A stretch of 16,920 nucleotides of DNA, from assembly GCA_025774205.1 (NCBI GenBank), contig JALGWK010000008.1:1-16920 (forward strand), written 5' to 3'. Below are positions 1,312-14,024 of the stretch, one piece after another. The stretch is from a bacterium (GTDB lineage: Bacteria; Blakebacterota; Blakebacteria; Blakebacterales; Blakebacteraceae). The notes beneath the pieces are model-generated. The model was given only the letters and a program-made list of their open reading frames with translations, made no database searches and had not been told where the DNA came from. The position numbers and the translations under genes are program-made. How positions within the stretch are numbered: position 1 is the stretch's first letter; each line of letters opens with the position of its first letter.

Positions 1312-1926
1312 TTACTTCAGATGGTAGGCGATCTCTGAAAGACCGAGCGAGATGTGCTCGTTTCTCACCAGTACATCGGCAGGAACATTCAGACTGGTCG
1401 GGGTGAAGTTCCAGATGGCCTTGATGCCGGTCGAAGTGAGCCGGTCGGTGAGGGTCTGCGACACCTCCACCGGCGTGCAGAGTATGGCAAGCCTGATATT
1501 GTAATTCCTGATGTACTGTTTCAGGGTCCGCGTCGACCGGATCGTGTAGCCGGCCTTCCGACGGCCGACCTTGGCCGGATCGCTGTCGAACACGGCTTCG
1601 ATCATGAGACCGTACTTCTCGAATCCCGGATAAGTGAGCAGTGCTCCACCCAGCTGTCCCACGCCGATAAGCACCGCAGCGTTCTCATGGTCGAATCCCA
1701 TGACCTGCCGGATGGCGCAGCAGACATCTTCAACCTGGTAACCGACCCGGCCGATACCCATCAGACCGATCGCGCCGAAATCCTTGCGGACCTGGGTGGG
1801 ATCGATATCGAGGGCTTCGGCGATCTGGGCGCTCGTGATCGTCTGGATCGGCTTGATCTTTGTTGTCTGGGACAGGAAGCGGTGGTACCGCATCAGACGT
1901 TCCAGTACCACCCTTTTGAGCTGCAT
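1312..1926 (-). CDS. rex: Redox-sensing transcriptional repressor Rex
   Basis: Rex is a homodimeric repressor that binds DNA when NADH is low and lets go when NADH rises. The 204-residue protein has the expected two-domain order: an N-terminal winged helix (about 1-80, with the recognition-helix motif DPTQVRKDF at 42-50) and a Rossmann NAD(H) domain starting at GVGQLGGAL (88-96). The C-terminal NFTP segment (173-176) and the ending are also family-like. The start was placed at the ATG at 1926, not an upstream in-frame GTG at 1950, because a near-perfect Shine-Dalgarno sequence lies just ahead of this ATG and would fall inside the longer reading frame. A Rex-type operator lies about 50 bp upstream, suggesting autoregulation. 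The response-regulator gene upstream ends 165 bp away, so rex probably has its own promoter. Confidence 0.93.
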   Translation of the reverse strand: MQLKRVVLERLMRYHRFLSQTTKIKPIQTITSAQIAEALDIDPTQVRKDFGAIGLMGIGRVGYQVEDVCCAIRQVMGFDHENAAVLIGVGQLGGALLTYPGFEKYGLMIEAVFDSDPAKVGRRKAGYTIRSTRTLKQYIRNYNIRLAILCTPVEVSQTLTDRLTSTGIKAIWNFTPTSLNVPADVLVRNEHISLGLSEIAYHLK

Positions 1927-1931
1927 CGGCG

Positions 1932-1941
1932 GATCACCTCC
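1932..1941 (-). promoter_or_regulatory. Strong ribosome binding site of rex
   Basis: The coding-strand sequence GGAGGTGATC is fully complementary to the 16S anti-Shine-Dalgarno core and sits 5 bases before the ATG at 1926. It decides the rex start codon. Confidence 0.85.
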
Positions 1942-1974
1942 CCGTTGCACTGGCAGATCTCGAAAACGGATGAT

Positions 1975-2091: not shown

Positions 2092-2475
2092 TTACCCGAG
2101 CAGATCACCTACCAGCTTCAGGAGGAGCGGAGGATCCACAGGTTTGTGAATGAATCCATCCGGTGGCGGAATCTGCCGACGGGATGAGATAAAGGTCTCG
2201 AAATCATCCGATACACCGGTGATGATGATCACCGGAATACTCTTCAGCTGGTCGTCCTCCCTCAACTTCCGATATACGGCCACACCGGATTTCTCCGGCA
2301 TGGTGATGTCGAGCGTCACCAGGCCCGGTGTCTGCTCCTCCAGGATCGAAAGCGCCTCGGAACCATCTTTCGCCGTCACCGTGGTGTACCCGTTGTCCTC
2401 CAGAACCGTGGTCAGGAAATCCCGCGCGTCGGGATCATCATCCACAACCAGTACAAGTGTGCCAGCGTCAGCCAT
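2092..2475 (-). CDS. Single-domain response regulator (receiver only)
   Basis: This 127-residue protein is a CheY-like receiver with no output domain. The acidic pocket is Asp12-Asp13-Asp14, the phospho-acceptor is Asp56 in VTLDITMP, the switch threonine is Thr86 in IIITG and the conserved lysine is Lys111 in HKPVD. Its start overlaps the end of the histidine kinase gene by 8 bp, so the two are translationally coupled and the kinase is almost certainly its partner. It resembles the receiver domain fused to the iron-sulfur oxidoreductase of the same operon: both have FLxTVLEDxG after the acidic pocket and a PxGxxxKPVD segment around the lysine. With no DNA-binding domain it must act by protein contact or as a phosphate sink (inference). 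Confidence 0.92.
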   Translation of the reverse strand: MADAGTLVLVVDDDPDARDFLTTVLEDNGYTTVTAKDGSEALSILEEQTPGLVTLDITMPEKSGVAVYRKLREDDQLKSIPVIIITGVSDDFETFISSRRQIPPPDGFIHKPVDPPLLLKLVGDLLG

Positions 2476-3949
2476 GAGTCATGTCCTTTTCGGTCGAGAG
2501 CGTGTTGTCCGCATCAGGACCCGCTTCTGATTCTTCAACAGCAGGTGCTTCGCGCGGCAATTGTACCACAAAGTGGCATCCAGAATCAGGTTCAGATTTC
2601 AGTTCGATCGTTCCCCCATGGGCAGTGGCGATTTTATCAGCTATGAACAGACCGAGTCCGGTTCCGGTTCCCTTTGAAGAGAAGAACAGGGTGAAGGCTT
2701 TCTCACGGGTTTCCTGGTCCATCCCGATACCATTATCCTCCACTTCGAACTCGATATGATCGCGCAGCCCTCGCAGGCGGAACGTCACCCGGTGTTCGCT
2801 CTTCTTTTCATCCAGGCGGCAGGCGTCGAGGGCGTTCTCGAGGAGGTTTATCAGGAGTGCGCGGACGGCCTGACCATCAGCCTGGAACTCTCCAGCGTCA
2901 GGATCAAACTCGGTAACGAGTTCAACCTGCTGGTCCCTGGCCCGGTTCTCCATCGAGGCGAAGACCTCCTCGGCAATCTCCCTGGAGGATAGTTCCTCCC
3001 GATTCGGGATCCGGTCCTTGGCGTAGTAGAGGATATCGGAGACCATATTGCGGATGCGCATGACGTTCCGCTGGACGGTCTCCCACCCCTTCTCCACCCG
3101 TTCCTCATTGCCCTTCGACATGCCGGTATTGACGAGGTACATCCCTCCTGCCAGTCCGTTCAGCAGTCCCTTCAGACCATGAGAGACCGAACCGATCAGT
3201 AGCCCGAGCGAAGTCAAACGGTCCTCGAGCTCACGGATCTGGGTGATATCGGCGCTCATCTCCATCACCCCGGTGATGTTCCCCATCCCATCCTTCAGCG
3301 GGGCCGTCGTTACCAGCGTGTTGATCTGCCGTCCATCCCGGGAGGTCACACATTCCTCGCGGGAGTGGGAGAGACCGTCATCGAGGGTCTGCTGGACCGG
3401 ACAGGGGGCGCACGGCTCTGAGCGATGCTTATACGCCTCGTAGCACTTCTTCCCCAGGCTGTTGCCGAACGCTTCCTGGAAAGCCCGGTTGGCCTCAATA
3501 ATGTTCAGTTCGTGGTCCTGGATCGAGATGTAACAGGGTACCTCGTCGAAGAGGAGGCGATATCGCTGCTGGCTGCGGCTCAGGAGTTGATGGAGGTTCT
3601 GGATATGGGTGATGTCGGTCGAGACTTCCAGGACGGCGGTGATCTTTCCGGAATCGTCACGGATCGGTTTCGTGTAGACGATCGTCTTGACTTCCGAGCC
3701 GTTCAGGGTCTGGACCTGCTCCTGGCTCTCGTGGCGCTGACCGTCACGGAAGGTCCGGGCGACAGGACAGACCTCGCATCGGTCGGGACGCCGCTTGTAA
3801 ACCTGGTAACAGTAGCGGCCCTCGAAATCACCGAAGTCCTCCCGGAATCGCTTGTTGGCGTCGATGATCCGAAAATCCCGGTCCTGGACCGTCACATACC
3901 CGGGCATCTCTGCGAAGTACTGGAAGTACTGTTTGTACTCCGGATCCAT
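2468..3949 (-). CDS. Cytoplasmic histidine kinase with two cysteine-bearing PAS domains
   Basis: The 493-residue protein has no membrane segment. Two PAS-type domains (about 8-115 and 130-235) each carry the same three-cysteine pattern: Cys47, Cys58, Cys61 and Cys169, Cys180, Cys183, ending in CxxCPV. The dimerisation/phosphoacceptor helix has His257 in SVSHGLKG. The ATPase domain has an N box (Asn372 in LLENALDA), a G1 box (DNGIGM at 405-410) and a G2 box (GTGTGLGL at 427-434). A strong GGAGGTGA ribosome binding site precedes the ATG at 3949. The paired Cys sets suggest redox or metal sensing (inference). It lies 61 bp downstream of the oxidoreductase-receiver fusion gene and overlaps its response regulator, which places sensor and both receivers in one operon. 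Confidence 0.92.
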   Translation of the reverse strand: MDPEYKQYFQYFAEMPGYVTVQDRDFRIIDANKRFREDFGDFEGRYCYQVYKRRPDRCEVCPVARTFRDGQRHESQEQVQTLNGSEVKTIVYTKPIRDDSGKITAVLEVSTDITHIQNLHQLLSRSQQRYRLLFDEVPCYISIQDHELNIIEANRAFQEAFGNSLGKKCYEAYKHRSEPCAPCPVQQTLDDGLSHSREECVTSRDGRQINTLVTTAPLKDGMGNITGVMEMSADITQIRELEDRLTSLGLLIGSVSHGLKGLLNGLAGGMYLVNTGMSKGNEERVEKGWETVQRNVMRIRNMVSDILYYAKDRIPNREELSSREIAEEVFASMENRARDQQVELVTEFDPDAGEFQADGQAVRALLINLLENALDACRLDEKKSEHRVTFRLRGLRDHIEFEVEDNGIGMDQETREKAFTLFFSSKGTGTGLGLFIADKIATAHGGTIELKSEPDSGCHFVVQLPREAPAVEESEAGPDADNTLSTEKDMTHG

Positions 3950-4010: not shown

Positions 4011-5900
4011 TTAATCCGCCAGTTCGAGGATCTTCCTCACGTTCAGCAACAGCCTCTCTTCATCGACCGGTTTGTCCAGATACCCTTCAGGGGGCCTGAC
4101 CGAGCGATCATAGATGAGCTTCCGCAGCTCCGGTCGGCCAGTGATGACGCAGACCTTCAGTTCCTCGAGTTCTGGATCCTCCCGGAGCATCTCGAACACC
4201 TCACCCACGTCGCGACCCGGCATGTGCAGGTCGAGGGTGAGCAGATCGGGCTTCTCCCTGCGGGCCAGCTCCAGGGCCTCATCGCCGGTAGCGGCCCGAT
4301 AGATCGTGGCGCCATGATCCTCGAGCACGGTGGCCAGGAACTCGACCTGGTCCGGCTCGTCATCCGCGACCACGATCACACGACCAGCGAGCGACATGGC
4401 GTCAGCTGAGACCACTTCCGGAACCTCCCCCCCGGCAACCTCGACCGGAACCTCTTCAACAGCAACCTCGACCGGGACCTCTTCAACCGGTACGACCTCT
4501 TCAACCGGTACGACCTCTTCAACCGGTACGACCTCTTCAACCGGTACGACCTCTTCAACCGGTACGACCTCTTCAACCGGTACCACAATCTTCTCTTCGA
4601 TTACCAGAGCATTGGCCACCAGGTTCACAAGCTGGGTGACCTCAATGCCCAGCTCATAGTGTCTGATAACATCACTCAGTCCGTCCACACAGTTGTGGCA
4701 GCTGGTGACCACCACTTCAGCGCCGGTCTCTTTCAGCTGATCAGCCTTGACCACACCCGATTTCAGGCGATTCGGAGTGTACTCGGACATCGACATGGCT
4801 CCACCGCCACCCGTACAGCAGTAATTCTCGGCGCGGTTCGGGTACATCTCCTGGAAGTTCTCGCAGACCAGGTTCAGCAATTCGCGCGGCTCCTCGAAGA
4901 GTCCGCAGCTTCTGGCGTTGTTGCACGAATCGTGGAACGTCACCAGCTGGGTGTTCCGGCTCTTGTCGACCTTGATGCGTCCCTCCCTGATGTAGCGCAG
5001 CATGGTCAGCACCGAGCTCTCCATCTCGAAGGGGATGTCGAAAGCGGCCCAGTTGGGTCCCTCACATCGGGTTGAACGGTATCCGTGTCCACACTCGGAG
5101 ATAACCAGCCTGGAGGCATTCAGTTCGATGACTTTCTCATAGAGCCGCCGCGCCACCGATCCGCCGAGGGCATCATCACCGGAAAAGAGCCCGAAGTTCG
5201 TCTGATCCCAGCCCTCGCTCGGCATCGTCCAGCTCTCACCAGCGGCATGGAATATCTTGGCGGCGTCGGCGATGCTCCGGGGATCGTACTTCACTTCGCG
5301 CGGATTGATGGCGTACATAACCGTGCAATCGCTCTTGTCCACCGGGATCGCCACACTCGGATCCTCCAGTTCGTCCTGGAGTTCTTCCTCCATCCATTCG
5401 AGCGTGTCGAGGTAATCTTCCTTCAGCACACCCATCTGGTTGCCGAGTTCCCACTGGTCCTTGCTCACCACGGCCACCCCTTCGGGCTGAACCCCGACCG
5501 ATACCAGGAGCCCCCTGGCCATCCGGTTGAAGGTGGCATAATCGACACCCATCGGGCAGTTCAGGGTGCAGCGACGGCAGTTGGTGCACTTGCCGAACAC
5601 GGTGTCCTTCAGTTCCTCGAGATCCTCTTCGGTCCAGACAGAATCCGCCTTCACCCACCAGGGGATGACCCTTCCGGTCCAGTCGTAGTGGCGTTTGAAG
5701 AGTTTCCGGATCTTGTCAGCCTTGTAGGCCGGGGCGTACGTCGGATCACCCGGATTGGCGAGTACGTAATGGCACGATTCGGTGCACATGCCGCAGTGCA
5801 CACAGGCCGTCAGGGAACCAACTATCTGTCGGTTCAGCTTCTGCCCCATCCGTTCAATGACCTTCTCTGCCTTCTGGGAACGCTCTTTCTTCTGGCTCAT
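4011..5900 (-). CDS. TmcB/HdrD-like iron-sulfur oxidoreductase fused to a receiver domain
   Basis: This is the cytoplasmic catalytic-type subunit of a DsrMK/TmcBC/HdrDE-like complex, expected to pass electrons from the membrane cytochrome to a thiol/disulfide-type partner. Numbered from the ATG at 5900 (629 residues): two ferredoxin-type [4Fe-4S] motifs, Cys33/36/39/43 and Cys105/108/111/115; then CCG-type Cys270, Cys326, Cys332, Cys361-Cys362 and Cys401/Cys404. The CCG here reads CCTGGGG. A linker at about 440-475 is six VPVEEV repeats. A full receiver domain follows, with Asp513-Asp514, phospho-acceptor Asp557, Thr587 and Lys610. A GTG at 5936, directly after the upstream stop codon, would add 12 residues. 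The ATG was preferred because a weak AAGAGA-like ribosome binding site precedes it. Relatives such as TmcB normally end after the second CCG region, so the receiver is an addition. Confidence 0.9.
   Translation of the reverse strand: MSQKKERSQKAEKVIERMGQKLNRQIVGSLTACVHCGMCTESCHYVLANPGDPTYAPAYKADKIRKLFKRHYDWTGRVIPWWVKADSVWTEEDLEELKDTVFGKCTNCRRCTLNCPMGVDYATFNRMARGLLVSVGVQPEGVAVVSKDQWELGNQMGVLKEDYLDTLEWMEEELQDELEDPSVAIPVDKSDCTVMYAINPREVKYDPRSIADAAKIFHAAGESWTMPSEGWDQTNFGLFSGDDALGGSVARRLYEKVIELNASRLVISECGHGYRSTRCEGPNWAAFDIPFEMESSVLTMLRYIREGRIKVDKSRNTQLVTFHDSCNNARSCGLFEEPRELLNLVCENFQEMYPNRAENYCCTGGGGAMSMSEYTPNRLKSGVVKADQLKETGAEVVVTSCHNCVDGLSDVIRHYELGIEVTQLVNLVANALVIEEKIVVPVEEVVPVEEVVPVEEVVPVEEVVPVEEVVPVEEVPVEVAVEEVPVEVAGGEVPEVVSADAMSLAGRVIVVADDEPDQVEFLATVLEDHGATIYRAATGDEALELARREKPDLLTLDLHMPGRDVGEVFEMLREDPELEELKVCVITGRPELRKLIYDRSVRPPEGYLDKPVDEERLLLNVRKILELAD
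4476..4583. repeat. Six perfect 18-bp tandem repeats encoding a VPVEEV linker
   Basis: The + strand unit is GACCTCTTCAACCGGTAC, repeated six times without a mismatch (4476, 4494, 4512, 4530, 4548 and 4566). Degenerate copies follow towards 4440. The unit is 18 bp, so copy-number change keeps the reading frame and only alters linker length between the oxidoreductase and its receiver domain. Identity at silent positions suggests recent expansion by slippage. Confidence 0.95.
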
Positions 5901-5936
5901 GAGATCGTCTCTTTCGTCGCTGAGCTGTCTGGCCAC

Positions 5937-6617
5937 TTATCCGCGCTGAACCGGGTAGACACCCCTGTGACCGAGGGTCTTGCCGAGGTAGTAACGGGTG
6001 AACGGGTAGTAGAGGTAGTGGGAGATCTTGCTGAACGGCACATACATCAGGAAGAACGCCGTCAGGAGGAAGTAGGTCAGAAGATGCGTCTCTCCGTTCG
6101 TCGTCTGATTCGGCACCGACAGGAAGGCGAAGAAGAACCAGACCGTCAGGAGGATGAGAGAGAAGTAATCATCAGGAGAACTGAGCGCCCGCATGTACTT
6201 TCCGCCCGCGCGACGGATGATCCTGGTCACACCGATCAGGAAGGCGGTCCCGATCAGGATCTGGAAGAGCGTGACCACGAAGGCACTCTCCAGGAGACCC
6301 GGGCCGTAGGGAATTATCAGGGAGAGAGCGATCGAGGCGGTCACCCCGACATGGAAGATCCCGAAGGTGATCCACATCAGTAGATTCCTCCGTGTACTCT
6401 CCATCGCCCACGGCATGAAGATGTTGCCCCACGAATAGAAAATCCCCCGCCTCGGGGTGGTATCGGCCGCCCCGGTGGCTGGCTGACGGTCACCACCCGG
6501 CTTGAACCGGAGGAACCAGATGACACGAATGATGTAAACGGTCACCAGCCACGCGATCGCCACTTCTTGCAGGGTGTGTTCGGAAAAGTGCAGGAATTCG
6601 CTCATGACATGATCCAT
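5937..6617 (-). CDS. TmcC/NarI-like membrane cytochrome b subunit
   Basis: This 226-residue membrane protein is the likely quinone-facing heme b subunit that feeds the iron-sulfur protein encoded next. Five hydrophobic segments are visible at about 18-36, 80-103, 112-134, 150-168 and 178-196. Candidate heme ligands include His89 in GIFHVG and His200 in SKISHYLYYP, followed by the family-like ending PFTRYYLGKTLGHRG. A second in-frame ATG at residue 5 (6605) is an equally possible start; neither has a strong ribosome binding site. Spacing is tight: 7 bp after the macro-domain gene, and the oxidoreductase start region begins at or just after its stop. The pairing with a TmcB/HdrD-like partner supports the call; no heme c subunit is encoded nearby. 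Confidence 0.85.
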   Translation of the reverse strand: MDHVMSEFLHFSEHTLQEVAIAWLVTVYIIRVIWFLRFKPGGDRQPATGAADTTPRRGIFYSWGNIFMPWAMESTRRNLLMWITFGIFHVGVTASIALSLIIPYGPGLLESAFVVTLFQILIGTAFLIGVTRIIRRAGGKYMRALSSPDDYFSLILLTVWFFFAFLSVPNQTTNGETHLLTYFLLTAFFLMYVPFSKISHYLYYPFTRYYLGKTLGHRGVYPVQRG

Positions 6618-6624
6618 CCGGTTA

Positions 6625-7170
6625 TTACTGAGTCGCCATGGTTGACTGGAACGCGTCGAATTGGGGGGAATCGAAAACGCAGATGATCACCTCTGAAAGG
6701 CAGGTCTCCCCCTCCAGATGTGAGGTGATGACATCCAGCATCACCTTCGCCGATACTCCCGGCAAGATGCCGTAATAGCCTGCGCCCATGGCCGGAAAGG
6801 CGAGCCGCGTGACCCCCTTCTCCTCGGCGAGCTTCAGGGTGTTCTCCATCGTGGTTCGGAGCTTGCCCTCGATATCCTCTTCCTGGAAGCGGGGTCCGAC
6901 AGCGTGGATTATCAGTCCGGCCTTGAGATTACCGGCCTCGCTGACGACCGCTTCGCCTGTTTTCAGGGGGCCAGATTCATCGAGTTCGTTTTGCACTGAG
7001 GGACCGCCGCGAACCGCGATCGCGCCGCCGAATCCCGAGCCGAGTTGAAGATCGTGCTGGGCGTAATAGACGAACGCGTCGACCTCGATATCGGTGACAT
7101 CATCCTTGATGAGCCGCACAACACTCTTGTTGATCTGAAGGGTAGTTTCTTCCTGGAGAGTTTCTGGCAT
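6625..7170 (-). CDS. Macro-domain protein
   Basis: Macro domains bind ADP-ribose and related NAD-derived ligands, and some hydrolyse them. The 181-residue protein is a single macro domain: a binding-loop region GSGFGGAIAVRGG at about 44-56, LIIHAVGP at 86-93, and FPAMGAGYYGILPG at 125-138, which matches the phosphate-binding loop of the family. The usual Asn-rich catalytic loop (NAAN in MacroD-type enzymes) reads YYAQ near residue 35-38, so deacylase or hydrolase activity is doubtful and a binding role is possible (inference). It is the first gene of the operon with the cytochrome b and oxidoreductase-receiver genes. Ribosome binding site is weak (AAGG about 11 bases before the ATG). A hairpin lies 41-69 bp upstream. 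Confidence 0.85.
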   Translation of the reverse strand: MPETLQEETTLQINKSVVRLIKDDVTDIEVDAFVYYAQHDLQLGSGFGGAIAVRGGPSVQNELDESGPLKTGEAVVSEAGNLKAGLIIHAVGPRFQEEDIEGKLRTTMENTLKLAEEKGVTRLAFPAMGAGYYGILPGVSAKVMLDVITSHLEGETCLSEVIICVFDSPQFDAFQSTMATQ

Positions 7171-7552: not shown

Positions 7553-8476
7553 ATGTCGGCCTCAACAGTGATGGTGGTGCTCTACCTCCTGCTGGCGATC
7601 ATGGTCGTGGCCTTTGCGGTCAGGACCATCAGAATCGCGAAGTATCCGGTTCACCTCCGCTGGGAACTCTCCCCGGTGCCCCACGAGAAGGGCCGGGGCG
7701 CGTACGGGGGTTCCTACCTCGAGGAATTCGAATGGTGGACGAAGCCGCGGGAGAAGTCGTTGATCAATGAAGGGATCTACATGTTCAAGGAGATCGTGTT
7801 CCTGAAGGCGCTCTGGGAACACAACCGCCGGATGTGGTACTTCTCCTTCCCCTTCCACTTCGGCCTCTACATCCTCTTCGTAATGGCCGTACTACTGGTC
7901 CTGGGAAGTATCGCCAGTCTCCTCAATCTGCCGACACCGGGGATCGGGCTGGTTGCGAACGGTGTCCCGTTCCTGGCCGGAATCGGGTATGTGCTCGGGG
8001 GGATCGGAGCGCTCGGTCTCTTTGCCGGCCGGCTCTTCAGCCAGCGGTTGAAGCCGGTCACCACCCCCTCATCCTTCATCAATCTGGGGCTCCTGCTGGC
8101 CTTCTTCATCACCGGCGTGCTGGCGGTTTTCTCAACAGATAATTTTGCCTACCAGGCGACCGTCTTCGCGCAGGCGTTCGTAACAGTCTACTTCGCGGGA
8201 GAGGTAACCGGCCCGCTGGCGATCCACCTGATCGTGGCTGGAATCTTCCTCGCCTACCTGCCTTTTACCCAGATGATGCATTTCGTGGCCAAGTACTTCA
8301 CCTACCATGAGGTCCGGTGGGACGACGAACCGCTCGAGGCCGGCAGCAAGATGGAAGCCGAGATACAGGAACTGCTGCAGCAGACGGTGACCTGGGCAGC
8401 TCCGCATATAGGAGCTGACGGCAAGAAGAACTGGGTGGACATCGCCACCTCGCCACCCGCCGAGGAGACAGAATGA
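7553..8476 (+). CDS. DsrM/NarI-like membrane cytochrome b subunit
   Basis: This 307-residue membrane protein is the likely quinone-interacting heme b partner of the DsrK-like protein encoded next. Membrane segments are seen at about 5-24, 101-122, 139-158, 177-195 and 222-240. A cytoplasmic loop at 31-95 carries a PVHLRWELSPVPHEKG stretch and is rich in charged and aromatic residues. His102, His225 and His243 in or next to membrane segments are heme-ligand candidates. An AGAGGAG ribosome binding site lies about 10 bases before the ATG. The stop overlaps the next gene's start by 4 bp (ATGA), which implies coupled translation. It is distinct from the shorter cytochrome b encoded on the other strand. 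A Rex-type operator precedes it. Whether it belongs to DsrM proper or a DsrM-like paralog family cannot be settled here; DsrJ, DsrO and DsrP are not adjacent. Confidence 0.85.
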   Translation: MSASTVMVVLYLLLAIMVVAFAVRTIRIAKYPVHLRWELSPVPHEKGRGAYGGSYLEEFEWWTKPREKSLINEGIYMFKEIVFLKALWEHNRRMWYFSFPFHFGLYILFVMAVLLVLGSIASLLNLPTPGIGLVANGVPFLAGIGYVLGGIGALGLFAGRLFSQRLKPVTTPSSFINLGLLLAFFITGVLAVFSTDNFAYQATVFAQAFVTVYFAGEVTGPLAIHLIVAGIFLAYLPFTQMMHFVAKYFTYHEVRWDDEPLEAGSKMEAEIQELLQQTVTWAAPHIGADGKKNWVDIATSPPAEETE

Positions 8477-10086
8477 TGAGTGAGAAGATCCGCGTGAAGG
8501 ACATCGGGAAGAATCCGGACCGGAACCTGACCACGATCCGGCCGGAAGAACTCATTCCTCTCCCACCTCCCTACGATGATTTCGAAGAGCAGCCTGACTG
8601 GAAGGAACTCAGTAAAGGCGCCCGGGAGAACCTGGTCTGCAACCTCGATGGCTTCGTGGCCGTGAGTCTTCCCAAACCACAGAACGCCGAAGAGGAGAAG
8701 AAGTACGTCGACCAGTTCGTCGACGGTATGAAGAAACTCCTCTCCCGGGAGAACAACTGGACCTTCCTCCAGCCCCTGATGCTCTCGCTGGAGTACTGCA
8801 TCGGTTGTCAGACGTGCAGCGACTCATGCCATGTTTTCGAGGGGAGCGGCGACAACGAGATCTACCGCCCGACCTATCGCTCGGAGGTGTTCCGTCGGCT
8901 GGTGAACAAGTACGCGAAACCGGGAGGAAAGTTCACGGCAGCCCTGAACGGCGCTGATGTCGATCTGAACTGGACCACCATCACCCGCCTGGCCGAACTG
9001 GCCTACCGCTGCAATCTCTGCCGGCGCTGTGCGCAGGTATGTCCCATTGGTGTCGATAACGGTCTTATCACGCATGAGATCCGCAAAGTCTTCAGCCAGG
9101 AACTGGGCTGGGCCCCGAAGGATCTGCACGAAAAGGGCACTGTGCTCCAGCTGGAGGTCGGATCGAGCACCGGCATGAACTCGCTCGTGGCCAAGGACAA
9201 CGTCGAGTTCATCGACGAGGACATGACCGACATTACCGGCATCGAGGTGGAGACCTGCTGGGACAAGGAGAACGCCGATGTGCTCCTGCTGCACAACGCC
9301 GGCGAGATCATGGCCTGGCCGGAAAACCCCGGCGCCTTCGCGATCATCCTCGAGAAGGCCGGCATCGACTGGACCCTCTCTTCGGAGCAGGTGGGCTACG
9401 ACGGTGTCAACTACGGCCTCTTCTACGATGACTTCCAGCTCGCCCGGATCGCGCTCAAACACGCCGGCACCGCGAAGAACCTGAAGGTCAACAAGATCGT
9501 CATGGGTGAGTGCGGCCATGAGCACAAGGCCCTCATGACCATCGCCGACCGGGTCCTGACCGGTGAGATGTCGGTGAATCGTGAGAGCTGCCTGCCCTTC
9601 CTCGAGGAGATCGTCTTCAGCGGCAAGATCGAGTTCGATCCCTCCAAAAACGATTTTCCGGTGACCCTGCACGATCCCTGCAACATCGTGCGCAACCTCG
9701 GTATCGTCGAGCCGCAGAGACGGATCCTGAAGTACCTCTGCCCCCAGTTCAGAGAGATGACCCCGCACGGCGTGGACAACTACTGCTGCGGCGGCGGAAG
9801 CGGCTTCGCGGTGATGTCGGTCAACAACTTCACCGACTGGCGGGTGAACATCGCCAGCCGGACGAAGTTCAAGCAGATCCTGGACGCCTTCGCCGATCAG
9901 CCGGGACCGGAAGTGCAGAAGTACCTCTGCGCTCCCTGCTCCAACTGCAAGGGCGAGATCCGCGACATGCTGCACTATTACAACGCGCTGGAGAAGAGCA
10001 GCATCACCTACGGCGGCCTGGTGGAGTTGATCGTGAATGCGATGGTCGACGTCAAGGAGCCCTTCATCGAGTGGGAGATGCACTGA
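8473..10086 (+). CDS. DsrK/HdrD-like iron-sulfur oxidoreductase
   Basis: This 537-residue cytoplasmic protein is the heterodisulfide-reductase-like subunit that would take electrons from the DsrM-like cytochrome. Two ferredoxin-type [4Fe-4S] motifs are present, Cys109/112/115/119 and Cys180/183/186/190. The non-cubane-type catalytic site pattern of DsrK/HdrD follows: Cys347 in GECGHEH, Cys403 in HDPCN, CCG at 438-440 and CAPCSNC at 486-492. The length is close to that of DsrK. Two adjacent ATG codons (8473 and 8476) are both possible starts, with AGGAG at 8463-8467. It shares its overall plan and a similar C-terminal helix (GGLVELIVNAMV) with the oxidoreductase-receiver fusion on the other strand, but has no receiver domain. 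Cytosolic partner unknown; DsrC or another small thiol protein is the family precedent. Confidence 0.9.
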   Translation: MMSEKIRVKDIGKNPDRNLTTIRPEELIPLPPPYDDFEEQPDWKELSKGARENLVCNLDGFVAVSLPKPQNAEEEKKYVDQFVDGMKKLLSRENNWTFLQPLMLSLEYCIGCQTCSDSCHVFEGSGDNEIYRPTYRSEVFRRLVNKYAKPGGKFTAALNGADVDLNWTTITRLAELAYRCNLCRRCAQVCPIGVDNGLITHEIRKVFSQELGWAPKDLHEKGTVLQLEVGSSTGMNSLVAKDNVEFIDEDMTDITGIEVETCWDKENADVLLLHNAGEIMAWPENPGAFAIILEKAGIDWTLSSEQVGYDGVNYGLFYDDFQLARIALKHAGTAKNLKVNKIVMGECGHEHKALMTIADRVLTGEMSVNRESCLPFLEEIVFSGKIEFDPSKNDFPVTLHDPCNIVRNLGIVEPQRRILKYLCPQFREMTPHGVDNYCCGGGSGFAVMSVNNFTDWRVNIASRTKFKQILDAFADQPGPEVQKYLCAPCSNCKGEIRDMLHYYNALEKSSITYGGLVELIVNAMVDVKEPFIEWEMH

Positions 10087-12008: not shown

Positions 12009-14024
12009 TCAGGCACCCTCTTCCCCACTCCCGCCGCCGGTGATCCTGGTCCCGATCCAGGAACCCGCCTCCTCGACCGCCGCGAGGAATCCGTCACTCG
12101 CAGCCAGTCCGGTCGCCCGGTTCGTCACAAGGGTGTCGATCTCCTCCGAGGTCCAGAGGGACACGCCCTCCGGCACATCGGTATCGGTCAACGACCCGAA
12201 GGAGTTGAAGTCCATGATCAGGAGTGGCCTCTCCCTGAAGTCGCGCAGATCCGTCAGCACCGTCGTATCGAGGACCGGATCGGGATGATCGATACCGAAG
12301 TAGACGAAATCGGCCTCAGCGATGGCGCCGATCACGCTCTCCTCGGAGTAGGCGTGGACCCGCAGCCGTCGCCCGTCCCCGAGAGCACTCCGCAGCAGTT
12401 TCATCTGCCCGTGATGACAGCGGTAGATGACGGTCTTCCGTCTGCCGTGGACGCTGTACTCTCCGGCCAGCGTTTTCAGGATGGAATGGGAGGTCGTGGA
12501 CCCCCCGATCACCACATGGTGCCCCAGGTCCATCCTGACAGCGCTCTCCTGCTCGACACCAGTGAGAGCAGTCTGGCAGTAACTGGTCGCGTATCGACCC
12601 CACGAGGTCTCGGCCCGCACACCCTCCGTCAGCGCGGCGGCGTGTTCCATCAGCGCTTCCGACCTTGGTCCCTTCATATCGGAATGTCCGGCAATACGGC
12701 AGGCGGTCTGCAGCTGGGCCAGCACGTCGGTGTCGCCCGGCAGGTCACTGTTCAGTCCTGCGGCGGTCCGCATCAGATGATGCCAGGCTTCCTTTCCCTG
12801 GAAGGTGTTCACTTCCACACCGTCACCCTCCGAACCGAAGAAGATCCGGCGGATCCCGGCGATCGCACGATCCCGCTCACCCATTTCACCCGATCGGGTC
12901 AGCCAGCCGTAGAACTCGACGCGCTGACAGGTGTTCCAGACGAACGCCTCTTCCGCGTACCCCTTCTCGCGGACCTGATCGAGACAATCCAGGATGGCTT
13001 TTCGATGCTTCTTGATCGATCCGAAGGCGTCGGGATCACAATGATGCAGTCGCGGTCCCATGGAGGAACGATCCTCCCGGGCGGTGGAGACCCCTATCAT
13101 CACCAGCGAACTGATGTCCACCTCGACATGTTCCCGTTCCTTCACCGGAATGAGGATCGGCTCCTGATCGGGGCCTGTTATCCGCTGTGGTCCCCGTGTC
13201 ACGATGTTCTTCAGGGCGGTGACGAACGACTCCGAGGAACCCGGCCCTCCGCAGACATGGACTTCGACGGGGTGCTCATCCCCGACATCGGTATGGCCGG
13301 TAACCGGCAGCAGCGGCGTGATCAGGATCCTGGTCTCACCAGTATCCGTCAGGGCTTCGATCCGTTCGGTCACCTCAGGGTCCGGCTCACCATCTGTCAG
13401 GGAAGCGGTCCGGTGCGCGACCGAAAACCGATCCTCCGGCCAGCCGAGCCGCCGAGTGATCAGCCGTATCGTCCACTTAGTCTGTTCTTCGAACCGGTCA
13501 CCATTACCGGAGTCACAACCCGCACCAGGAGGAACCGTGAAGAGGAGATGGCAGTCGCGCGGTGAGAGATCATGGGCGGAAGCGAAATCGGCGATGTGCC
13601 GGGCATGGGCGTTCACGTAGCCGATGTCATCGAACCAGGCGGTCCTGGTAGCGACGTTGAGATGGGGTCCCGATTCGGCCAGCCGGCGATAGAGGATCCG
13701 GATCAGTTCCCCGGTGGTGCCGGAACTGAACTGGGGGGAGAGCGGTGTGACGACCAGCTCCTCGAATCCGGAGTTGATGATCTCGTCGAGCAGGTCTGTC
13801 AGGGAGGCCGCCTCACGGTCGTACGCCATGTAGACATCCCAGCCGGCGGGAAGGGAGGCGGTCAGGTTCTCAACCAGACTGGAGAGAGCAAGGATATGAT
13901 CGGGATCAGTCCCGGCAGGTGATACTACGTCAACCAGAAGGGCGCAGCGTCTCCGCGGCTCCCCGTTGGGGGCGGGGATAACCTGATCGGTATCGATCTG
14001 TCGATCTGTCGGAAACCTGGACAT
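12009..14024 (-). CDS. Ferrochelatase-like / glutamyl-tRNA-reductase-like fusion protein
   Basis: The 671-residue protein joins two tetrapyrrole-pathway folds. Residues about 26-285 resemble ferrochelatase: VVTPLSPQFSSGTTGELI (91-108) parallels the PLYPQYS-STTG signature, and RTAWFDDIGYVNAHARHI follows as in the family. Where ferrochelatases have FSAHG with the catalytic His, this protein has FTVPPGAG (162-169), so the catalytic His is lost. Residues about 305-655 resemble HemA: Cys366 and Arg368 in NTCQRVEFY (catalytic Cys retained), HHLMRTAAGLNSDLPGD (415-431), RAETSWGRYA and a Rossmann-type VIGGST near 505. The usual GE of HemA is GD. It lies between the precorrin-2 dehydrogenase and cbiX, 17 bp after the former. 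It may make the ALA precursor in this pathway, or be a diverged non-enzyme. Domain calls are fairly firm, function is not. Confidence 0.8.
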   Translation of the reverse strand: MSRFPTDRQIDTDQVIPAPNGEPRRRCALLVDVVSPAGTDPDHILALSSLVENLTASLPAGWDVYMAYDREAASLTDLLDEIINSGFEELVVTPLSPQFSSGTTGELIRILYRRLAESGPHLNVATRTAWFDDIGYVNAHARHIADFASAHDLSPRDCHLLFTVPPGAGCDSGNGDRFEEQTKWTIRLITRRLGWPEDRFSVAHRTASLTDGEPDPEVTERIEALTDTGETRILITPLLPVTGHTDVGDEHPVEVHVCGGPGSSESFVTALKNIVTRGPQRITGPDQEPILIPVKEREHVEVDISSLVMIGVSTAREDRSSMGPRLHHCDPDAFGSIKKHRKAILDCLDQVREKGYAEEAFVWNTCQRVEFYGWLTRSGEMGERDRAIAGIRRIFFGSEGDGVEVNTFQGKEAWHHLMRTAAGLNSDLPGDTDVLAQLQTACRIAGHSDMKGPRSEALMEHAAALTEGVRAETSWGRYATSYCQTALTGVEQESAVRMDLGHHVVIGGSTTSHSILKTLAGEYSVHGRRKTVIYRCHHGQMKLLRSALGDGRRLRVHAYSEESVIGAIAEADFVYFGIDHPDPVLDTTVLTDLRDFRERPLLIMDFNSFGSLTDTDVPEGVSLWTSEEIDTLVTNRATGLAASDGFLAAVEEAGSWIGTRITGGGSGEEGA

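Follow-up and report, generated by a model that had tools for sequence, protein, structure and literature searches.

The locus and its genes

The window, by which we mean the whole stretch of 16,920 nucleotides that was analysed, carries on its reverse strand a single open frame of 641 amino acids (4011–5936) in which an iron-sulfur electron-transfer part, a linker and a receiver domain follow one another. Met13 of this frame (position 5900) is the likely true start, as judged from the alignment of relatives, and residue numbers are those of the 641-aa frame. The fusion gene, its parts and its neighbours are as follows:

2092–2475, reverse strand: free single-domain receiver, DVU0259-like (103 bits; cut-off of 160 not reached)
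2468–3949, reverse strand: histidine kinase, PAS-PAS-DHp-ATPase
4011–5900, reverse strand: fusion protein (dicluster ferredoxin plus CCG, HmcF/TmcB/DsrK-like, plus linker plus receiver)
4017–4382, reverse strand: receiver domain, residues 518–639, with D525, D526, D569 (phospho-acceptor), T599, Y619 and K622
4383–4595, reverse strand: disordered linker, about residues 447–517, holding an 18-bp tandem repeat
4597–5900, reverse strand: iron-sulfur electron-transfer part, residues 13–446, with eight ferredoxin cysteines and CCG cysteines 338/373/374/413/416
5937–6617, reverse strand: membrane subunit, HmcE/TmcC-like (44 and 40 bits, below the equivalog cut-offs)
6625–7170, reverse strand: macro-domain protein (ADP-ribose-binding type), first gene of the conserved set
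7553–10086, forward strand: DsrM-like/DsrK-like pair (DsrK model 332 bits, below 400)

Across the clade of relatives described below, a recurrent gene order was found, consisting of the macro-domain protein, the HmcE/TmcC-like membrane subunit, the fusion, the PAS-PAS kinase and the free receiver. In the window the genes of the kinase and the free receiver share 8 bp. Two histidines of the membrane subunit, H89 and H200, are invariant (56/56), and the divergently placed DsrM-like/DsrK-like genes represent a second conserved electron-transfer pair, present in many relatives.

A Rex redox repressor gene (1312–1950, reverse strand) follows the operon in the same orientation, and does so in the sister genome L023 too. 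Siroheme-pathway genes are found within the window, and beside them is a 671-aa ORF (12009–14024, reverse strand) in which a ferrochelatase-like stretch (residues 52–250) is followed by a glutamyl-tRNA-reductase-like one (346–606); both matches are far below curated cut-offs, and the ORF reads as an odd fused tetrapyrrole enzyme. A perfect direct repeat of 35 bp in two copies (258–327) gives overlapping frames in a peptidase-like ORF (79–1293) and may be a duplication or an assembly error. No RNA families or tRNAs were found in the window.

The iron-sulfur part and its closest known systems

The N-terminal part contains a Fer4_8 match (residues 42–131, 43.9 bits) and a CCG domain (residues 332–416, 38.6 bits), both above the Pfam gathering cut-offs, with eight ferredoxin cysteines (45, 48, 51, 55 and 117, 120, 123, 127) and the signature C338...C373C374...C413xxC416. 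The ferredoxin cysteines are kept in all 47 fused sequences that reach this part and the CCG cysteines in 48/48, and this dicluster-plus-CCG composition places the fusion in the HdrD/CCG iron-sulfur superfamily. An earlier reading of the DNA from its letters alone (the sequence-only reading) had described ferredoxin and CCG cysteines of a TmcB/HdrD-like protein. The cysteines are as described, but the second CCG domain is missing, there being only one; in the N-terminal half Cys282 is conserved and Cys204 partly so. The family name holds at the level of the superfamily, but not below it: over the first 450 residues the best curated models were HmcF (NF045711, 333.7 bits), TmcB (NF045724, 320.7 bits) and DsrK (NF045796, 253.5 bits), and membership of each was rejected against equivalog cut-offs of 750, 735 and 400 bits, respectively.

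HmcF and TmcB of the Desulfovibrio Hmc and Tmc complexes share with the fusion a layout of two ferredoxin clusters and CCG over ~430 residues, and these complexes, like the window locus, have a co-encoded HmcE/TmcC-like membrane subunit. The fusion differs from them in scores that do not reach half of the curated cut-offs, in bearing a receiver and in having no cytochrome c gene in the window, where a search for a multihaem cytochrome c (HmcA/TmcA) found no CxxCH in any of 14 genes; this motif is present beside the unfused relatives L013 and L015. DsrK of DsrMKJOP is also a homologous HdrD-like subunit, and dsrA occurs in most fused genomes, but on another contig of the window genome dsrA adjoins a separate and more canonical dsrK-dsrJ-dsrO-dsrP-like cluster (the four names of the cluster being a sequence reading and dsrA a model match). 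The closest solved structure of the iron-sulfur part is Mycobacterium EtfD (PDB 9ojn; Foldseek E 1.7e-14, TM 0.51, 20% identity), which differs in being longer (1042 aa), in having another partner and in having no receiver reported in the match. From these comparisons the complex of the window resembles the membrane and HdrD-like core of Hmc, Tmc and DsrMK, minus the c-type cytochrome. In the open-access literature nothing relevant was found on the fusion or on receiver control of HdrD/HmcF/DsrK proteins.

The receiver domain and its linker

The C-terminal domain matches Response_reg (residues 521–633, 58 bits, cut-off 30.2), and with the acidic pair D525/D526, the phospho-acceptor D569, T599, Y619 and K622 its hallmarks are complete, so that it can be classed, by sequence, as a response-regulator receiver. 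These are the key residues that the sequence-only reading had listed; its D557, T587 and K610 correspond to D569, T599 and K622, the numbers being 12 apart because it counted from Met13. Asp569 and Lys622 are invariant in the 48 fused sequences, residue 599 is Thr or Ser in all 48, and the acidic pair is present in 47/48. The linker, in comparison, is almost unconserved, which points to strong constraint on the receiver, and residue conservation also ruled out the receiver as a degenerate passenger.

Linker length ranges from 11 to 56 aa in relatives (11–72 aa over the whole set) and its composition is variable, mostly P/V/E-rich. The repeat that had been noted here is real, with six perfect copies of 18 bp (4476–4583) encoding VPVEEV, but it is peculiar to this genome; its expansion was seen in the window genome only, and L023 has a short linker. 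In the AlphaFold2 model of the fusion (40-sequence alignment, mean pLDDT 85.5) the receiver is confident and the linker has pLDDT <50, and no confident arrangement of receiver and enzyme was obtained (pTM 0.67).

The curated receiver model matched best by both the fused (66 bits) and the free receiver (103 bits) is the DVU0259 family (NF045717), but both fall below its cut-off of 160 and the family, judged by its model name, is not fused to an electron carrier. Recent duplication of the free receiver next to it was rejected as the source of the fused one, the two being separate, co-inherited families. In L057, L060, L061 and L069, which branch together as a divergent clade among the fused sequences of the tree, the receivers are only ~30% identical to that of the window, as against ~70% for the iron-sulfur part; fast evolution or a domain swap was considered as a possible origin of these receivers.

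Distribution and phylogeny of the fusion

Relatives were sought by scanning one genome per species. The iron-sulfur part and receiver were found in one ORF at 47 loci, giving 48 sequences with the window, and a census of Acidobacteriota added six further fusions. These single-ORF fusions include ones on the finished MAG chromosomes CP070717, CP070812 and CP070666. Chance, a frameshift, an assembly chimera or two genes could thus be ruled out by 48 single ORFs from many assemblies, and the fusion proposed from sequence alone is confirmed; of the outcomes that had been set against it, two genes here and no fusion in relatives were looked for, and neither was found. The MAG labels of the fused relatives span at least nine named phyla, among them Acidobacteriota, Planctomycetota, Gemmatimonadota, Ignavibacteriota, Bacteroidota/Kapaibacteria, Thermodesulfobacteriota, Zixibacteria, LCP-89 and Electryoneota; relatives labelled 'Deltaproteobacteria' are placed under Myxococcota at NCBI.

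A maximum-likelihood tree built on the iron-sulfur part unites every one of its 47 fused rows with five unfused ones in a single clade with 100% support, and the fused or unfused state needs five label changes over the whole tree. With the root left uninferred, these changes may be gains or losses of the fusion. The five unfused members (L048, L051, L053, L066 and L070) have the receiver lost or split, and in L051 it is a separate ORF 53 bp downstream which nests within the fused-receiver family. These losses, like the high variability of the linker, are what might be expected if the fusion were functionless, a passive accident of gene order or an assembly artefact. Such a reading is very improbable, and is effectively refuted by conservation, given 48 single-ORF cases from many assemblies, an invariant phosphorylation site, a broad spread and a conserved kinase.

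Conservation of the neighbouring genes

The adjacent kinase on which the sequence-only reading relied is a regular companion of the fusion, an orthologue adjoining it in 43 of 47 relatives. Three of the four loci lacking it are at contig ends; the fourth, L043, is genuine, with no orthologous kinase within 8 kb of its fusion. Of the unfused clade members, two (L053 and L070) have ~8 kb of sequence on the downstream side, and the kinase is absent from both. Outside the clade, L074, a Desulfarculaceae MAG, has a membrane subunit, an unfused iron-sulfur protein, a free receiver, a homologous kinase and a receiver. As this is the same order lacking the fusion, the association of kinase and receiver is probably older than the fusion. 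Kinases and response regulators have likewise been described as flanking the hmc and tmc loci of sulfate reducers (PMC5109826).

The same neighbours bear on whether phosphorylation would set the location or partners of the subunit (the membrane subunit, the DsrM/DsrK-like pair or the macro-domain protein) and not its catalysis. A long disordered tether would suit such a role, as would conserved, co-encoded membrane and macro-domain partners and a second DsrMK-like pair nearby in many loci. Against it, the macro-domain gene was not detected beside the fusion in the Ignavibacteria-type clade, where both the fused receiver and the kinase are retained, and we regard this reading as improbable.

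The kinase and the two receivers

With an HATPase_c domain (Pfam, 85.5 bits) and a candidate phospho-acceptor, His257, that is invariant in 43/43 aligned kinases, the neighbouring gene product is predicted to be a sensor histidine kinase, and its AlphaFold2 model has two PAS folds, a two-helix dimerisation domain (DHp) and an ATPase domain. Each PAS domain holds a Cys-x10-Cys-x2-Cys triad (C47/C58/C61 and C169/C180/C183) in all 43 kinases, and the unfused L074 has a kinase with these triads as well. We infer that this Cys-PAS kinase would be a metal- or thiol-based redox sensor, the ligand being hypothetical, and the triad PAS domains are possibly an uncharacterised Fe-S or thiol sensor type. 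No DNA-binding domain was found among the Pfam matches of the kinase, the free receiver or the fusion.

Helix alpha1 of a receiver is the usual kinase-contact surface. Over 34 pairs from the same operon, fused and free receivers are 55% identical in alpha1 and 38% in the rest of the domain; for unrelated receivers, used as a control, the values are 38 and 35%. That likeness in alpha1 exceeds the rest of the domain fits a kinase common to both receivers, and is suggestive only.

A shared kinase also bears on the main rival to direct control, in which information flows in reverse: the fused receiver would be a docking or feedback domain through which the kinase is inhibited or drained in proportion to the state or abundance of the enzyme, and the free receiver would be the real output. 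Matching alpha1 helices would allow the two receivers to compete for the kinase, and since a second, free receiver is co-inherited the fused one need not be the sole output. A precedent exists in FixT, an Fe-S-binding single receiver whose 4-Cys motif holds the cluster and which inhibits the kinase FixL by feedback (PMC7078487). Like the fusion, FixT ties a receiver physically to Fe-S chemistry and redox control, but it binds its cluster itself, whereas the clusters here belong to a separate electron-transfer enzyme. A pure docking domain, moreover, need not keep Asp, Lys and Thr/Ser in 48/48 sequences over many phyla, and the free receiver is likewise without a known target. Reverse flow is in our judgement unlikely, though it deserves more weight than the alternatives above.

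Sulfur metabolism of the host genomes

Among the 48 fused genomes, dsrA, a gene of sulfite respiration, was found above the cut-off in 39 and as fragments in two more, and a substantial aprA match was present in 30 of 41; the window genome has a partial aprA. Within 347 genomes of Acidobacteriota, dsrA is present in 9/9 with the fusion, in 0/33 with the unfused relative only and in 4/38 sampled genomes with neither (Fisher p 2e-9 for the contrast, kinship between genomes being ignored). Of these 33 unfused cases, absence of the receiver was inspected in 14, and almost all of the rest have too short an open frame. Beyond Acidobacteriota, dsrA frequently accompanies unfused relatives as well, and a link to sulfite metabolism is therefore not peculiar to the fusion. 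The gene dsrD was rejected as a marker of the reductive direction; occurring in 10/41 genomes only, it does not set the direction (reduction, oxidation or disproportionation). In the dsrA-less Acidobacteriota L116–L119, a different kinase and a 225-aa regulator lie just upstream of the unfused subunit.

A possible direct control of electron transfer

The explanation that we favour, and hold to be probable by a small measure, is that the flow of electrons into the sulfite/DsrC branch is tuned by a redox-sensing kinase, which would phosphorylate the cytoplasmic subunit of the membrane complex itself. The complex would carry out membrane-bound electron transfer of a quinone/thiol type in dissimilatory sulfur metabolism, with the fusion as its cytoplasmic subunit. 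The Cys-PAS domains would sense the redox or sulfur state of the cytoplasm. Autophosphorylation of the kinase on His257 would be followed by phosphotransfer to Asp569 in the fused receiver, and to the free receiver as well, which would serve as a partner or sink. Once phosphorylated, the flexibly tethered fused receiver may dock on or release the iron-sulfur module and so speed or stop the passage of electrons, whose most likely recipient would be DsrC or some other disulfide partner of the sulfite pathway. Published genetics led to the proposal that Tmc lies on a route of electrons to the sulfite pathway, with DsrC as a possible acceptor (PMC4215793); DsrC as a redox partner is not established for Tmc or Hmc either.

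This explanation draws on the conserved fusion and phosphorylation site, the single clade, the adjacent kinase, the alpha1 match, the lack of a DNA-binding output and the association with dsrA. Against it we count the L043 locus, the five unfused clade members (one with the receiver as a separate ORF), the occurrence of dsrA with unfused relatives outside Acidobacteriota and the AlphaFold2 model, which in giving no confident arrangement of receiver and enzyme does not explain the route from phosphorylation to the clusters. Direct kinase control of electron flow, which the sequence-only reading had proposed, is plausible and strengthened, being partly supported by the comparisons made here; an electron carrier that ends in a receiver and lies beside a matching Cys-rich kinase may be a direct switch of the pathway that does not act via gene expression.

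More tentatively, and at a strength somewhat short of probable, this could be a widespread control layer in many phyla of dissimilatory sulfur metabolisers, in which a Cys-PAS kinase phosphorylates an electron-transfer subunit and gates sulfite reduction within seconds, without transcription. To our knowledge, hardly anything is known of how flux through sulfite/sulfate respiration is adjusted post-translationally. The fusion with its own Cys-PAS kinase and no DNA-binding output offers a concrete, testable hypothesis of direct phospho-control of a respiratory electron-transfer complex, and would serve as a sequence marker for such control across uncultured sulfur-cycling phyla.
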